A stretch of 64,000 nucleotides of DNA, taken from positions 1 to 64,000 of the forward strand of contig RDYP01000013.1 of assembly GCA_004293445.1 (NCBI GenBank). Direction: 5' to 3'. Shown piece by piece: positions 3,966 through 12,954 of this stretch. How positions within the stretch are numbered: position 1 is the stretch's first letter; each line of letters opens with the position of its first letter. Source of the stretch: Verrucomicrobiota bacterium (GTDB lineage Bacteria > Verrucomicrobiota > Verrucomicrobiia > Verrucomicrobiales > Akkermansiaceae). The position numbers and the translations under genes are program-made. The notes under the pieces were generated by a model. It was not told the DNA's origin, ran no database searches, and saw only the letters and a list, made by a program, of their open reading frames with translations.

Positions 3966-6347
3966 ATGAAGATTCGATCCATCGCCTTGCTCTCCGCCTC
4001 CGCCGTCACTGCCGTTTGCGGGGAGGTGGACTTTGCCCATCAGGTCGCACCGATTCTGAAGGAGCACTGTGCGAAGTGCCACATGGAAGGCGCGAAGAAG
4101 GGAGGCTTTTCGATGAATACCCGGGAATCCCTGCTGGAAGGCTCGGAAGATGGCGTGGTGGTCGAACCCGGCGAGGCGGACGACAGTATCTTGCTCGAGT
4201 CGATCCTCTCCGACGACAAGACCGAGCGAATGCCGCCAAAGGGTCCGCGCATGCCGGCCGAGCAGGTTGAAATCCTACGGCGTTGGATCGATGACGGGAT
4301 GGCCTGGGAGCCGGGTTTCAGCTTCGGAAAATCGGCCTACGAGCCCCCACTCAAGCCGCGCCGACCGGAACTGCCACCCGTGGTTGAAAGCCGCGAACAC
4401 CCCATCGATCGAATCGTCGACCACCACTTCGCGCAGCATAAGATTACCCGTCCCCGCCCTCTGGGTGACGCCGCCTTCATCCGTCGCCTCACGCTCGACC
4501 TCACCGGCTTGCTGCCGACACCGGACGAAGTCCAAGCCTTCGTCGCAGACGCTGCGCCGGACAAGCGAGCCAAGTGGATCGAGGCCACACTCGCACGGGA
4601 CAGCGACTACGCCGAGCATTGGATGAGCTTCTGGAACGACCTGCTGCGCAACGATTACCAAGGCACCGGCTACATTGACGGCGGCCGCAAGCCGATCACC
4701 AACTGGCTGCAGCAGGCTTTGTTGCAAAACATGCCCTACGACCGCTTCGCACGCGAATTGCTGGCTCCGCCGGACGATCGCTCACGCGGATTCATCGACG
4801 GCATCCAATGGCGCGGCAGTGTCAACGCGTCCCAAGTACGGGAAATCCAGTTTTCGCAATCGATTTCGCAGACCTTCCTCGGCCTGAACATGAAGTGCGC
4901 ATCGTGCCACGACAGCTTCGTCGACCGATGGAAGCTCGACGAGGCCTACAGTCTCGCCGCCGTGTATGCCGAACAGCCACTCGAAATCGCCCGCTGCGAT
5001 AAGCCGACGGGCCGGATGGCCAAGCCCGGATGGATCTTTCCCGAACTGGGAAACATCGATGCCTCCGCGCCGAAGCCCGAACGGCTGAAGCAATTGGCGG
5101 CGCTGATGACCCATCCCGAAAACGGCCGCTTCACCCGGACCATCGTCAACCGCCTCTGGCAGCGCATGATGGGGCGGGGCATCGTTCATCCGGTCGATGC
5201 CATGGACACCGAACCTTGGAACGGAGATTTGCTCGACCACCTTGCGACACGCTTCGCCGACGATGGCTACGACTTGAAAAAAGCGCTCGCCTACATCGCT
5301 TCGTCACAGGCCTACCAATCGGAGTCCGTCGTGACCGCCGAAGGTGCCGATCCCGCCCTATTCCGTGGCCCTCTTGCAAAACGGATGAGCGCCGAGCAAT
5401 TCGTCGACGCGGTCTGGACCCTCACCGGCAGCGCCCCCTCACAACCCCACGCCGCCATCACCCGCCGCAGTGCGGGCGACGCCACCGAACTCGCCGCGCG
5501 CTGGATCTGGTCCTACCCCACCGCATCCACTTCGGCTCCCGCAGGCGAGCGCATCGCCCTTGCCACCGAATTCGAGCTGCCCGCCACACCGAGCTCGGTG
5601 CGAGCCGTCTATCTCGCCGACAACGAGGCGCAGATCTACGTGAACGGCAAACTCGCCGATGATGGCACCAATCCCGACGCACCACTTGCCCGCGGCATCG
5701 ATCTCACCCACTTGCGCGAGGGGAGGAACTTCATCGTCATCGTCGCCCGCAATGGAGGCGAAGGCCCGAATCCCGCGGGACTGATCTTCGAGGCCCGCGC
5801 GACGCTGCCCGATGGCCGGAAAGTCACCATCGCCAGCGGCCCGGATTGGAAATGGAGCCCCAGCTTGCCGGATGCCAGCGGGCGCTACACCCGCACCCCG
5901 CGCGATTGGCAAGCGGCAGCGGAACTGGCGAATCCATCCGTGTGGGATGCCTTCGCGAACGGCTTGGCCGATCGCTTCGAACCCACCCGCATGGTCCGCG
6001 CATCGCTGGTGCCGGCCGATCTTCTGCAGCGCGCGCTCGGCCGCCCGAACCGCGAACAAATCGTCAGCATGCGGCCCGACAATATCACCACGCTTGAAGC
6101 CATCGATCTCGCCAACGGCGAGCAACTTGCCGGCCTGCTCCAGCGTGGAGCCGCGACACTCGCCGCGAACCGCATGAAACCGGCGAAATTGATCGACGCG
6201 GTCTTCGTCACCGCGCTGGGCCGCAACCCGAGCACCGCCGAAAAGTCCGCGCTGCTCGCCGAGTTGGGCAGCGCCCCCGGCCCGCAGGCCATCGAGGACC
6301 TGCTCTGGCTGGTCATCTTGCTTCCCGAATTCCAATTCGTTCGCTGA
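3966..6347 (+). CDS. PSCyt1/DUF1549/DUF1553 cytochrome-like protein
   Basis: 793 residues with a signal peptide (to about residue 19). The N-terminal PSCyt1-type domain carries the haem motif CAKCH and the typical ending (ERMPPKGPRMPAEQVEILRRWIDDGM). A DUF1549 region with the family's second CxxCH (KCASCHDSF) follows. The DUF1553 region contains NRLWQRMMGRGIVHPVDAMD. Between DUF1553 blocks, about residues 510-650, sits an inserted beta-rich segment (WIWSYPTASTSAP ... AQIYVNGKLADDG) resembling a galactose-binding-like domain. Such proteins are abundant in Planctomycetes and Verrucomicrobia, usually paired with a DUF1501 protein as here (13-bp gap), and are thought to take part in periplasmic polysaccharide breakdown or electron transfer; the exact reaction is unknown. 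Confidence 0.88.
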   Translation: MKIRSIALLSASAVTAVCGEVDFAHQVAPILKEHCAKCHMEGAKKGGFSMNTRESLLEGSEDGVVVEPGEADDSILLESILSDDKTERMPPKGPRMPAEQVEILRRWIDDGMAWEPGFSFGKSAYEPPLKPRRPELPPVVESREHPIDRIVDHHFAQHKITRPRPLGDAAFIRRLTLDLTGLLPTPDEVQAFVADAAPDKRAKWIEATLARDSDYAEHWMSFWNDLLRNDYQGTGYIDGGRKPITNWLQQALLQNMPYDRFARELLAPPDDRSRGFIDGIQWRGSVNASQVREIQFSQSISQTFLGLNMKCASCHDSFVDRWKLDEAYSLAAVYAEQPLEIARCDKPTGRMAKPGWIFPELGNIDASAPKPERLKQLAALMTHPENGRFTRTIVNRLWQRMMGRGIVHPVDAMDTEPWNGDLLDHLATRFADDGYDLKKALAYIASSQAYQSESVVTAEGADPALFRGPLAKRMSAEQFVDAVWTLTGSAPSQPHAAITRRSAGDATELAARWIWSYPTASTSAPAGERIALATEFELPATPSSVRAVYLADNEAQIYVNGKLADDGTNPDAPLARGIDLTHLREGRNFIVIVARNGGEGPNPAGLIFEARATLPDGRKVTIASGPDWKWSPSLPDASGRYTRTPRDWQAAAELANPSVWDAFANGLADRFEPTRMVRASLVPADLLQRALGRPNREQIVSMRPDNITTLEAIDLANGEQLAGLLQRGAATLAANRMKPAKLIDAVFVTALGRNPSTAEKSALLAELGSAPGPQAIEDLLWLVILLPEFQFVR

Positions 6348-7932: not shown

Positions 7933-10900
7933 TTACTGACAGGCCTCGCAGGTGCCGCCGTTCATCATGGCATCAAGAGAACAGGCCATCTTTTCTTCGG
8001 CGCTGTAGGTCTTGGGACCGTTGCCGGCCGCTAAGCCGCGGACTTCCTTTTTCACGTCGATGGTTGCCTTCTCGATGTTGGAAGCCTGAAGGGTGCGGAG
8101 GTAGTAGGTGGTCTTGAGACCCTTATCCCAGGCACGGCGATACATGTGGGACAGCGTCTTCATGTCGGGACTGGAGAGGAACAGGTTCACACTCTGACTC
8201 TGGTCAATCCACTTCTGACGACGGGCCGCGGCATCCACGATGTATTCGTGTCCAATGCCGAAGACGGTTTTGTGCTTGTGCTTGAGCGCCTCGGGGATGT
8301 CGTCGATGGCATCGAGCTCGCCATCGAAATACTTGAGCTGATCGAGCATTTCCTGATTCCAGAGGCCCGCCTTTTTGAGGTCTTTCACGAGCTCAGCATT
8401 CAGGACGATGAAGTCGCCACTGAGATTGCTCTTCACGTAGAGGTTCTTGTAGTTCGGCTCGATGCAGGGGGTGGTGCCCATGATGTTCGAGATGGTCGCC
8501 GTCGGGGCGATCGCCAGCACGTTGGAATTCCGCATGCCATGCTTGGCGATCTTTTCGCGCACGACAGACCAATCCATCTTGCCACCGCGGGGGATGTCGA
8601 TCTTGCGGCCACGCTCGTCTTCGAGCAGGTCCACCGTGTCTTGCGGAAGAAGACCGCGATCCCACTTGGAACCCTTGTAGCTGGAGTAAGTGCCGACTTC
8701 CGCAGCGAGATCGCTCGAAGCACTGTAGGCATAGTAGGCGATAGCCTCCATGAACTCGTCATTGAACTCCACTGCCGCCTCGGAAGCGAAGGCAAGGTTG
8801 CGCTTGTAGAGGGCATTCTGCACGCCCATCACCCCAAGCCCGATCGGACGGTGACGCATGTTTGCAGTTTTGGCGGCATCGGTCGGGTAGAAGTTGATAT
8901 CGATGACGTTGTCGAGGGCACGAATGGCGACGGTGATGGTCTCCTTCAGCATCTCGTGGTCGAGAGCACCGTCGCGGGTGATGTGGGTATCGAGGATGAC
9001 GGAGCCGAGATTGCAAACAGCAGTCTCCTCGTCGGAGGTGTTGAGGGTGATCTCGGTGCAGAGATTCGATGAGTGGATGACACCGCAGTGATCCTGTGGA
9101 GAGCGGACGTTGCAAGGATCCTTGAAGGTGATCCAAGGGTGGCCGGTTTCGAAGACCATCTTGAGCATGGACTTCCAGAGCTCGATAGCGGGCAACTGGC
9201 GGCCCCAGATTTTGCCTTCGGCGGCGAGAGCTTCGTATTCGGCATAACGTTGCTCGAAGGCCTTGCCGTAGAGGTCGTGGAGATCAGGGACCTCATTCGA
9301 GCGGAAAAGCGTCCAAGTGCCCCGCTCCTCCATGCGCTTCATGAAGAGGTCAGGGATCCAGTTCGCAGTGTTCATGTCATGACAGCGGCGACGCTCGTCA
9401 CCGGTGTTTTTCCGCAACTCGAGGAAGTCCTCGATGTCGTTGTGCCAGGTTTCGAGATACGCACAGCCCGAGCCGCGGCGCTTGCCGCCTTGGTTGACGG
9501 CGACGAGCTGGTCGTTGTGAAGTTTGAGGAAAGGAATGATACCCTGAGACTCACCGTTGGTGCCTTGGATGTAACCGCCGGTGCCGCGGACTGCGGTCCA
9601 GGATCCTCCGAGGCCACCCGCCCATTTGGAAAGGAAGGCATTTTCCGCAATACCGCGGATCATGATGCTCTCGATGGAGTCGTCGACCTTGTAAAGATAG
9701 CAGGACGAAAGCTGGCTGTGGAGGGTCCCGGAATTGAAGAGGGTGGGCGTGGATGAACAGAAGCGCCTGCCTTTGTAGAGGTTGTAAAGACGGATCGCCC
9801 AAGATTCGCGGTCTTTCTCCTCTTTCTTGAAGAGACCCATTGATACCCGCATCCAGAAGAACTGGGGCGTTTCGATGCGACGATGCTTGTTGCTCGTCTT
9901 GTCGACGATCAAATAGCGATCGTACATCGTCTGGATGCCGAGGTAATCGAAATCGAGATCCGCGGAGGGATCGAAGGCGTCAGCGAGCTTATCGATGTTG
10001 TAAACTTCGAGCAAATCGGGATGGAGGCGCTTGATGGCGACCCCGTGCTTGAGATAACTCTTGAATGCGGTTTTGTGAGCGACCTTGAGCTTATCGATAC
10101 CGTCCTTGAGAATACTCCAATCGAGGACTTCTTCGTAGATGTAAGAAAGCAGGATTCGGCCGGCGAATTTCGCGAAATCGGCATCCTTCTCGATCAGAGC
10201 CTTGGCGTTGAGGATGATTGTATTTTTGAGATCCTTCTGAGAGATCTCATTACCAACGGAGCGGCGGAGTTCACGCTCGATTTCAATTTCCGAGAGATTC
10301 AGGTCGAGACCGATGGACGCGTAGGAAATGCGTTTGCGGAGATCTGTGCCGTCCCAGAACGAGGAGGTCCCATCGTCACTGATGACGGTGACCATCAGCT
10401 CTTGGTTCGGGTCCTCGGCGTTTTCCTCTTCAAGCTTCCGCAGCCGGGTGCGTTCGTTGCGATAAAGAACGTAATGAGTGGCGGCCTTGAAGTGGCCTTG
10501 GCGCATGAGTTCTTCCTGCACCATGTCCTGGACGTCCTCGATGTGGACGAAGGACGATTCACCACGACGGATGCGATCGGTCACGCCCTTGGCGATGTCG
10601 ATGGCAGGTTCGGGATTCTCTTTGATCGTGAGGAAAGCTTTGCGAACGGCGATTTCGATCTTGGTTTCGGACCATGGCACCACGTTGCCATTGCGCCGGA
10701 TCAGACGAACAGGCAGAGCGTGGGGACCGCTGTGAACGTCAACGGTGCCGGTCTTTTCCATTGAGCGGCGGAAGGCGAGGGACTTGGCGACATCGTAGGC
10801 CTCGTTTTCGAGGAGAGCCTTTTCGATCAGCAGGTAGAGATCGCCTTCGGAAATACGAAGGCGGCCGTCGGCCTTGAGGGAATCCGTGAGGAAGGAGGCG

Positions 10901-11196
10901 ACCGAGTGGGCGACGTCGGCCACGAACTTGCGGTTGACGTCGGAGAAGATGGATTTCTCATCCTCGCGGCGAGAAATCAGCAGGTCTGCGAGGGAATCAC
11001 CGATGGCATCCGCAACGTCTTCGAGTGAGAAATGGGAATCGGTGGTCCCGCGGGTGATGGTGATCTCCGGGAGAGGCGTACGCTTTTCGGTGGGCAAGAC
11101 TTCGCGCCAAGCGAAGCCACGATCGGCAAGGGAGAATCGGTCGGTGACGACCTGCTTGAGAGCGAGGTCTTCATTCAGGTTCAGGGAACGGAACAT
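7933..11196 (-). CDS. nrdA: ribonucleoside-diphosphate reductase alpha subunit, class I, chlamydia-like
   Basis: 1087 residues, far longer than the roughly 760 of E. coli NrdA, because about 360 N-terminal residues hold three ATP-cone-like modules: about 42-145, 162-255 (PVRLIRRNG, the canonical one) and 268-360. The extended chlamydial enzymes have the same plan. The catalytic core has the redox pair Cys499 (SSCYL) and Cys728 (AVCNLGS), the active-site set Asn711-Cys713-Glu715 (SSNLCTEI) and the radical-relay tyrosine pair (TTYYLRT). The tail ends GGTCEACQ, the thioredoxin-accessible CxxC. It converts ribonucleoside diphosphates to deoxy forms together with NrdB, encoded 75 bases upstream in the same operon. 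Confidence 0.96.
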   Translation of the reverse strand: MFRSLNLNEDLALKQVVTDRFSLADRGFAWREVLPTEKRTPLPEITITRGTTDSHFSLEDVADAIGDSLADLLISRREDEKSIFSDVNRKFVADVAHSVASFLTDSLKADGRLRISEGDLYLLIEKALLENEAYDVAKSLAFRRSMEKTGTVDVHSGPHALPVRLIRRNGNVVPWSETKIEIAVRKAFLTIKENPEPAIDIAKGVTDRIRRGESSFVHIEDVQDMVQEELMRQGHFKAATHYVLYRNERTRLRKLEEENAEDPNQELMVTVISDDGTSSFWDGTDLRKRISYASIGLDLNLSEIEIERELRRSVGNEISQKDLKNTIILNAKALIEKDADFAKFAGRILLSYIYEEVLDWSILKDGIDKLKVAHKTAFKSYLKHGVAIKRLHPDLLEVYNIDKLADAFDPSADLDFDYLGIQTMYDRYLIVDKTSNKHRRIETPQFFWMRVSMGLFKKEEKDRESWAIRLYNLYKGRRFCSSTPTLFNSGTLHSQLSSCYLYKVDDSIESIMIRGIAENAFLSKWAGGLGGSWTAVRGTGGYIQGTNGESQGIIPFLKLHNDQLVAVNQGGKRRGSGCAYLETWHNDIEDFLELRKNTGDERRRCHDMNTANWIPDLFMKRMEERGTWTLFRSNEVPDLHDLYGKAFEQRYAEYEALAAEGKIWGRQLPAIELWKSMLKMVFETGHPWITFKDPCNVRSPQDHCGVIHSSNLCTEITLNTSDEETAVCNLGSVILDTHITRDGALDHEMLKETITVAIRALDNVIDINFYPTDAAKTANMRHRPIGLGVMGVQNALYKRNLAFASEAAVEFNDEFMEAIAYYAYSASSDLAAEVGTYSSYKGSKWDRGLLPQDTVDLLEDERGRKIDIPRGGKMDWSVVREKIAKHGMRNSNVLAIAPTATISNIMGTTPCIEPNYKNLYVKSNLSGDFIVLNAELVKDLKKAGLWNQEMLDQLKYFDGELDAIDDIPEALKHKHKTVFGIGHEYIVDAAARRQKWIDQSQSVNLFLSSPDMKTLSHMYRRAWDKGLKTTYYLRTLQASNIEKATIDVKKEVRGLAAGNGPKTYSAEEKMACSLDAMMNGGTCEACQ

Positions 11197-11271: not shown

Positions 11272-12360
11272 TTAAAGATCGTCGTCGTCGACCGTGCTGA
11301 GGGCGGATGCCTTTTGATATTCCGTGACGCGACCTTCGAAGAAGTTGGTCTCCTTCTTGATATCCATCATCTCGGCCAACCACGGGAAAGGGTTGGTGAC
11401 GCTTTCGTTCAATGGGGCGAGGCCGCAGGAACTGAGACGACGGTCGGCGATGTAGTCGATGTATTGCTCGAAATCCGCGGAATTCAATCCAAGGCCGGCG
11501 ACAGGCAGGCAGTCGCGGATGAACGTCTTTTCGAGGGTGATGCCCTCCTTCATCGTCGCACGAAGGTCCTCGCGGAAGTCTTCGGTCCAAATATCGGGAT
11601 TTTCGTCGATGAGATCCATGAGGAGGTTGCGGAAGACTTCGATGTGGTTGGACTCGTCACGCAGCGTGTAGCGGAACATCGAACCGATACCGGGGAACTT
11701 GTTCTGCCGATAGAGGCTGAGGATCATGCCGAAAAGGCCGTAGAACTGGGTGCCTTCCATGACTTGGCCGAACATGAAAATGTTCTTGGCGAGGGCCTGC
11801 TTGTTGGCGGTGACGGTGAGATCGATGTCGCGGCGGAGGGCCTTGCTGTTGGAGACGACGAAATTGTTTTTCGCGGTGATCGAGGGCACATCCTCGAACA
11901 TCGCTTCGCATTCGTGCGGGTTGATGCCGAGAGAGGAAATCATGTAAACCAGCGAATCGGCATGGATGTTTTCCTCGTGAGCGTGGCGTCCGAGCACGAG
12001 CTTAAGTTCCGGTGCGGTCACGACTTCGCGAACCACGTGAAGGACATTATCGCCGACGATGCCTTCGGCAGCGGAGAAGTAGCCGATGCCCATTTTGATG
12101 ATCCACCGCTCCACATCGGTGATTTCATCCGAACGCCACTGCTCGACATCCTTTTGCATCGTGATGTCCTCCGGTTCCCAGTGGTTGTTCTTCATAGTCT
12201 TGTACAAGTCGTAAGCCCACTGGTACTTGAGCGGAAGAATGTTGAAAAACATCGTCTCCTTCCCGTTGATCACGCGCTTGGCGGCGTAGGCGGCTTCGGC
12301 CTTCTCGCGATCGAGGGTGAAAGTGCGGGATCCGAGGGAAACGGTCGTGGTGGAAGACAT
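11272..12360 (-). CDS. nrdB: ribonucleotide reductase beta subunit without radical tyrosine (class Ic-like)
   Basis: 362 residues. All six carboxylate/histidine metal ligands are present: Glu99, Glu130, His133, Glu202, Glu236, His239. In E. coli the motif E-x-x-H-x-x-x-Y carries the stable tyrosyl radical; here it reads ENIHADSL, with Leu137 (codon CTG, 11952-11950) in the Tyr position. Chlamydial R2 has Phe there and uses a Mn(IV)/Fe(III) centre instead of a tyrosyl radical. Two residues on, Tyr139 matches the chlamydial LY. Trp48 and Tyr348 of the radical-transfer path are kept, and the tail (NFFEGRVTEYQKAS) is close to the chlamydial one. I infer a class Ic-like heterometal cofactor. nrdB precedes nrdA. 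Confidence 0.95.
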   Translation of the reverse strand: MSSTTTVSLGSRTFTLDREKAEAAYAAKRVINGKETMFFNILPLKYQWAYDLYKTMKNNHWEPEDITMQKDVEQWRSDEITDVERWIIKMGIGYFSAAEGIVGDNVLHVVREVVTAPELKLVLGRHAHEENIHADSLVYMISSLGINPHECEAMFEDVPSITAKNNFVVSNSKALRRDIDLTVTANKQALAKNIFMFGQVMEGTQFYGLFGMILSLYRQNKFPGIGSMFRYTLRDESNHIEVFRNLLMDLIDENPDIWTEDFREDLRATMKEGITLEKTFIRDCLPVAGLGLNSADFEQYIDYIADRRLSSCGLAPLNESVTNPFPWLAEMMDIKKETNFFEGRVTEYQKASALSTVDDDDL

Positions 12361-12954
12361 GGAGGTGGAATGGTAAGAATGGTGGGGTAAGGGAATCGTT
12401 GCCGGACGTCGCCGACACCGCAGGAGCAGCGTTGCAAAATCTGCCGCAAAGCTTGGCAGAACTCAAGTCGATTCTGCTCATATGGTATCCACAAATTATT
12501 CACAATACCACATGTGGTGGTGTCGTATTTCTGGTGACACCGTTCTCCTGCGGCTTCTCTTCCTCAGAGCTTGAAAGGACGGGCCCAAAACTGACCACGA
12601 GCCCGATCGGCTGGCAGCGCTCTAGGGGCTTGAATTTTTCCGAGGAAAATCGCCGAACCCAAAGCACCTGGATATTTTTAATCTGTTAGATTCACGATAA
12701 ACTCAAAAATCCAATAAAGTGCTCATAATTAGATTGTTGCGATTTTAAAAAATCGCAATTCGCCGATCTCGTTGCTTCACCAAGCGGGAGCTTGAGGCAT
12801 CGCAATCAACGACTTAGATCGATCCGACGAAAAAAACGGATTCTTCGAAAAGAAGACCCGGAAGGAGTCATAAGAGCGGACGCCGCCCATAGCGGCCGCA
12901 AAGAATTGCCGACTCGCAATCGGCGGTTTGACGAACGCCGGCCCTGGCAGGGGC
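12361..12954. other. long non-coding region upstream of nrdB, AT-rich in part
   Basis: 594 bases with no convincing gene. It holds the nrd regulatory sites (12485-12518), a notably AT-rich stretch (about 12630-12770), and an inverted repeat pairing 12737-12746 (ttgcgatttt) with 12749-12758. It also holds a degenerate copy of the palindromic repeat near 12885-12930. The AT-rich tract plus DnaA-like boxes recall a replication origin, but only two boxes are visible and no dnaA/dnaN/gyrB neighbours exist, so an nrd promoter is the simpler reading. Confidence 0.6.
12485..12518 (-). promoter_or_regulatory. candidate nrdBA control region: two DnaA-like boxes and a 12-bp palindrome
   Basis: TTATTCACA at 12496-12504 fits the DnaA-box consensus TTATNCACA exactly. 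GTATCCACA at 12485-12493 differs from TTATCCACA by one base and is spaced 11 bp away, one helical turn. Right beside them 12507-12518 is a perfect palindrome, ACCACATGTGGT, which could bind a dimeric repressor. It does not match the NrdR-box consensus well. The sites lie 125-158 bases upstream of the nrdB start. E. coli nrdAB is controlled by DnaA, which makes this plausible. Confidence 0.5.

Follow-up and report, generated by a model that had tools for sequence, protein, structure and literature searches.

The window, that is, the whole 64,000-nucleotide stretch of Verrucomicrobiota DNA analysed here (contig RDYP01000013.1, positions 1 to 64,000), encodes on its minus strand both subunits of a class I ribonucleotide reductase (RNR), nrdA lying 75 bases downstream of nrdB. 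The features discussed below are these:

7933..11196, minus strand: nrdA, R1 or alpha subunit, 1087 aa, partner of NrdB (Pfam domains; NF005544)
11272..12360, minus strand: nrdB, R2 or beta subunit, Tyr-less (Leu137), class Ic-type (open reading frame, PF00268, NF005550, structural matches)
11668..11670, minus strand: codon of Tyr231, by alignment the equivalent of C. trachomatis Tyr222, the activation electron relay in R2c (role from PMC4118035)
11950..11952, minus strand: CTG codon of Leu137, by alignment the radical Tyr position (E. coli Y122, C. trachomatis F127)
12064..12066, minus strand: codon of Glu99, first metal ligand, a position with Glu in class Ic (C. trachomatis E89) and Asp in class Ia/Ib
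12178..12180, minus strand: codon of Trp61, which by alignment is the Trp of electron/radical transfer (C. trachomatis W51, E. coli W48)
12478..12520, minus strand: paired palindrome-like motif upstream of nrdB (CCACATGTGGTATTGTG ... TTTGTGGATACCATATG), recognised by conservation

The nrdB frame runs from an ATG at 12360 to a stop at 11272-11274 and encodes 362 amino acids; a plus-strand gene over the same interval was rejected, the plus-strand frame being a mechanical overlap of the minus-strand ORF. The product matches the Pfam profile PF00268 (class I RNR R2, ferritin-like) with an E value of 1e-66, scores 340.7 bits with the NCBIfam profile NF005550 (cut-off 309), and is the R2 subunit of RNR. 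Its partner NrdA scores 1231 bits with the NCBIfam profile NF005544 (cut-off 965) and carries an ATP-cone domain, the catalytic cysteines, a Tyr-Tyr dyad and a C-terminal CxxC (motifs SSCYLY at 497, SNLCTEI at 710, AVCNLGS at 726, TTYYLR at 1029 and CEACQ at 1083). The paired motif upstream of nrdB is kept in most of the relatives inspected and resembles NrdR boxes, making it a candidate pair of NrdR sites. The genome, which is 97.4% complete, holds a single R2 and a single R1-type barrel; neither a second R2 nor a class II enzyme or class III NrdD was found in it. Since NrdA/NrdB is the only RNR found, the pair must be active, supplying the dNTPs, and the idea of a pseudo-R2 backed by another RNR was discarded for the same reason.

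As a preliminary description of this DNA had proposed, NrdB has a leucine where the radical tyrosine is expected: Leu137 aligns with Phe127 of the Chlamydia trachomatis R2 and Tyr122 of E. coli, and a classical tyrosyl radical at this position is impossible. The alignment offers no substitute tyrosine at the site, the nearby Tyr139 and Tyr231 being present also in the Phe-type chlamydial proteins. Likewise, the six metal ligands named in that description (Glu99, Glu130, His133, Glu202, Glu236 and His239) are intact in alignments with the C. trachomatis R2, whose ligands they match, and with other R2 proteins, and they follow the class I pattern D/E...ExxH...E...ExxH. The radical-transfer residues needed one correction: Tyr348, in the segment FFEGRVTEYQ, does align with the C-terminal Tyr of the C. 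trachomatis R2, which serves transfer to NrdA, but Trp48, although a conserved Trp, is not the pathway residue, which by alignment is Trp61, in the motif NNHWEPE. NrdB is a genuine, conserved RNR subunit that lacks the usual radical-storing tyrosine.

This leucine is a property of a lineage. It is present in 132 of 132 fetched relatives with an identity of at least 68%, all of them Verrucomicrobiota, and is written there with all six Leu codons (CTC 56, CTG 41, TTG 12, CTT 12, CTA 6, TTA 5). One cultured relative, Haloferula sp. BvORR071, has an NrdB that is 94% identical to this one. A residue that is universal in the clade through all six codons is kept by selection, and a sequencing error or point mutation at 137 was rejected on these grounds; the residue and codon counts indicate that Leu137 is under strong constraint. 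R2 proteins at least 70% identical to NrdB occur in 84 of the 388 sampled genomes of the phylum, a Tyr-less R2 being the rule in a large verrucomicrobial branch, while more distant members of the phylum have either Phe-type proteins near that of C. trachomatis (loci L117, L118 and L149-L152) or ordinary Tyr/Asp R2. At one locus (L127; G328:C32, minus strand) nrdB is split over two frames, through a frameshift or an assembly error.

One expectation of the preliminary description has to be given up. Leucine does not widen the known natural range: R2c proteins with Leu, Ile or Val have already been recorded (Hogbom 2010, as cited in PMC3824934), and in this large clade Leu is universal, with Val and Ile versions present in viral contigs. 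In ferritin-like proteins of class O, too, Phe or Leu as a redox-inert residue has been called class Ic-like (PMC9531940). What is new is the size of the Leu clade and its invariant, different second shell. The interest of the system lies accordingly in the size and uniformity of this clade and in the pairing rule described below, and not in the Leu substitution. Nearly all class Ic biochemistry comes from C. trachomatis, and in the open-access literature we found no experiments on a Leu-type R2c. The Leu clade has many free-living relatives whose DNA precursors would all depend on a metal-centred oxidant next to an aliphatic residue, and its natural variants allow a comparison of what Phe and the second shell each contribute to the choice of Mn/Fe.

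Among 80 representative R2 proteins, the residues at positions 137 and 99 combine as Tyr/Asp (34), Leu/Glu (30), Phe/Glu (12), Val/Glu (2) or Ile/Glu (2), with no exception. Tyr/Asp versus non-Tyr/Glu is thus a simple sequence rule that covers all four Tyr-less types (Phe, Leu, Val, Ile). On the tree each trait has to change four times, and only two independent pairs sit on well-supported branches, too small a number for a significance test. In the current scheme Tyr/Asp corresponds to class Ia/Ib, Phe/Glu to Ic and Tyr/Glu to Id (PMC8463856), and by the pairing rule Leu137 with Glu99 makes NrdB a protein of the Ic type. Together with these two residues, NrdB has the Tyr231/Trp61 electron path and Tyr348, further sequence features of class Ic. 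Three other assignments were considered and rejected: (i) class Id (NrdBi) by definition retains the Tyr together with a Glu first ligand (PMC8463856), whereas NrdB has Leu137. The class Id proteins of Flavobacterium johnsoniae, Leeuwenhoekiella blandensis and Facklamia ignava do share with NrdB the Glu first ligand and, as proposed here for NrdB, a metal-based oxidant, but they keep the Tyr, use Mn2(IV,III), have a Lys near the site and are only about 20% identical to the window protein. (ii) In class Ie three ligand Glu are replaced and a Tyr/DOPA is present, while NrdB keeps all its ligands and has no Tyr at 137. (iii) R2lox is incompatible with the presence of Tyr348 and an adjacent nrdA, and the best R2lox profile gives 50 bits against a cut-off of 194.

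The kinship to class Ic put forward in the preliminary description is backed by sequence, model and tree. The closest solved relatives by sequence are the C. trachomatis R2 (E value 2e-76) and 6y2n (4e-75), the next solved R2 following at 2e-42. When an AlphaFold2 model of NrdB (mean pLDDT 86, pTM 0.84) was searched with Foldseek, the top 14 matches were all C. trachomatis NrdB, including Mn/Fe forms, and 6y2n, with 4m1i, 4d8g and 4m1h as the best; class Id structures matched far more weakly (E about 1e-11 versus 1e-22 for class Ic). Two trees both gather the Leu proteins into a single clade of Verrucomicrobiota (SH-aLRT 99 and 97), and the Phe-type proteins, including that of C. trachomatis, form a second group together with some Tyr/Asp proteins and the viral Val/Ile types. 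One tree places the Leu clade as the sister of the Phe-plus-Tyr clade, with a weak support of 82, and the other does not resolve the point.

With the C. trachomatis class Ic R2 (1syy, 4d8f, 4d8g, 4m1h, 4m1i) NrdB shares the fold, the six ligands with Glu first, a non-oxidisable residue at the radical position and equivalents of Trp51, Tyr222, Tyr338 and Tyr129. The two proteins are nevertheless only about 37% identical, fall in separate clades and differ in having Phe or Leu at the radical position, in several second-shell residues and in the C-terminal tail, which in NrdB ends in DDDL. The 6y2n R2 and its relatives (Phe/Glu; a plasmid copy is found in Aureimonas sp. AU20, L154) show the class Ic sequence pattern as NrdB does, but have Phe and are nested among Tyr/Asp relatives in the tree. 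Viral contigs L189, L190, L196, L202, L205 and L216 encode Val/Ile R2 proteins with a Glu first ligand and Tyr231 kept; these make up a separate aliphatic clade of about 40% identity to NrdB, and in L189, L190, L196, L202 and L216 Tyr139 is kept as well. R2 genes are also carried by plasmids at L153 (Acidithiobacillus caldus megaplasmid mpAca1.1), L155 and L158, with no nrdA listed adjacent to them; those of L153 and L155 lie beside partition or PRTRC genes.

In R2c, an electron travelling by way of Tyr222, which is conserved among R2c, and Trp51 reduces the Mn(IV)/Fe(IV) intermediate to the active Mn(IV)/Fe(III) form (PMC4118035). Because the equivalents of these two residues, Tyr231 and Trp61, are 100% invariant across the Leu clade, we infer the same oxidant here, and we hold it to be highly probable that NrdB is a functional class Ic-type protein, the radical-generating half of the sole RNR, with Mn(IV)/Fe(III) as the most likely cofactor. 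The six ligands would bind a dinuclear site, most probably with Mn occupying site 1 and Fe site 2, and reaction with O2 would produce Mn(IV)/Fe(IV). One electron delivered via Tyr231 and Trp61 would convert this into a stable Mn(IV)/Fe(III) centre, and this centre, not a tyrosyl radical, would reversibly oxidise the NrdA cysteine by way of Trp61, Tyr348 and the Tyr-Tyr dyad of NrdA. Leu137 would be a non-oxidisable residue in the place of the lost tyrosine, much as Phe127 is in Chlamydia.

The residues that lie near the ligands in the sequence set the Leu clade apart. At His126, His128, Asn131, Asp135, Thr204, Gln205, Thr232 and Asn238 the Phe group has, respectively, Gln, mostly Phe, Ala, mostly His, Ile/Met, Phe/Trp, Ile and mostly Ile, and these positions are invariant or nearly so in both groups. 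Thr232 aligns with an Ile that lines the Tyr122 pocket in E. coli (Ile234). So consistent a difference means that the cofactor of the Leu clade could differ from that of the Phe group; the clade is more than a Phe-to-Leu exchange, leaving room for a differently tuned centre. That it lost the Tyr independently of the chlamydial line and acquired such a centre (T204/Q205/T232/N238/H128), possibly not Mn/Fe, seems to us unlikely, but if true 'class Ic' would span more than one origin and chemistry. A slightly less probable variant would make NrdB a Tyr-less metal-based protein with another cofactor, Mn2(IV,III) or high-valent di-iron, that arose separately from chlamydial class Ic. It would suit a clade with its own branch and its own second shell, R2c being polyphyletic in literature trees (Lundin 2010, as cited in PMC3824934), and class Id, with its Mn2(IV,III), likewise has Glu at the first ligand (PMC8463856). 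Class Id, however, pairs that Glu with a retained Tyr and has a Lys near the metals, whereas NrdB has no Tyr at 137; the weaker structural match to class Id and the retention of the R2c electron-relay residues also speak against this variant.

That the radical might instead sit on another residue next to a di-iron or di-manganese centre, with Tyr139, Tyr94 and Tyr231 as examples, we consider improbable. Tyr139, two residues past Leu137, is as invariant in the Leu clade as Tyr231, and Tyr94 is Tyr in all Leu-clade sequences and Phe in the Phe clade; yet the Phe-type class Ic proteins, which work without a stable Tyr radical, have Tyr139 and Tyr231 just as invariantly. Least probable of all, to the point of being scarcely credible, is a degenerate or regulatory R2 that has lost radical generation: such paralogues do occur in sister genera, but NrdB keeps the six ligands and Tyr348, its gene shows strong conservation, and its genome has no other R2.

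These paralogues may be more interesting than Leu137 itself. In 13 genomes of the same family (genus g206, plus G376 of g7) a second R2 gene lies directly upstream of a normal Leu-type nrdB (L115:2802-4016, L173-L183 and L186, the first R2 of each tandem pair); the window genome has no such tandem. In 13 of 13 cases the upstream copy has Glu99 replaced by Gln, His133 and His239 by Arg and Glu236 by Val, Ile or Thr, and has lost Tyr348, while Trp61, Glu130, Glu202, Asp235 and an acidic C-terminal tail are kept. With pairs restricted to dS below 3, its median dN/dS is 0.086 (17 pairs), compared with 0.027 (18 pairs) for the normal copy, and the ligand-less paralogue is under purifying selection. 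Its pattern is like that of yeast Rnr4, and it looks like a bacterial counterpart of this beta-prime subunit, which cannot assemble a cofactor but forms a heterodimer (PMC3824934). A second paralogue lineage (L184 and L185, in G406 and G439 of genus g205) carries E99G, E130Q, H133Q, E236A and H239R, and these different ligand losses suggest that the loss was repeated or has diverged. Extra copies of another kind are the second R2 of L113 (ending at 5529) and that of L114 (minus strand), both also without the FFEGRVT segment; like the R2 of L116, they have the six ligands and Leu137, with His in place of Tyr139.
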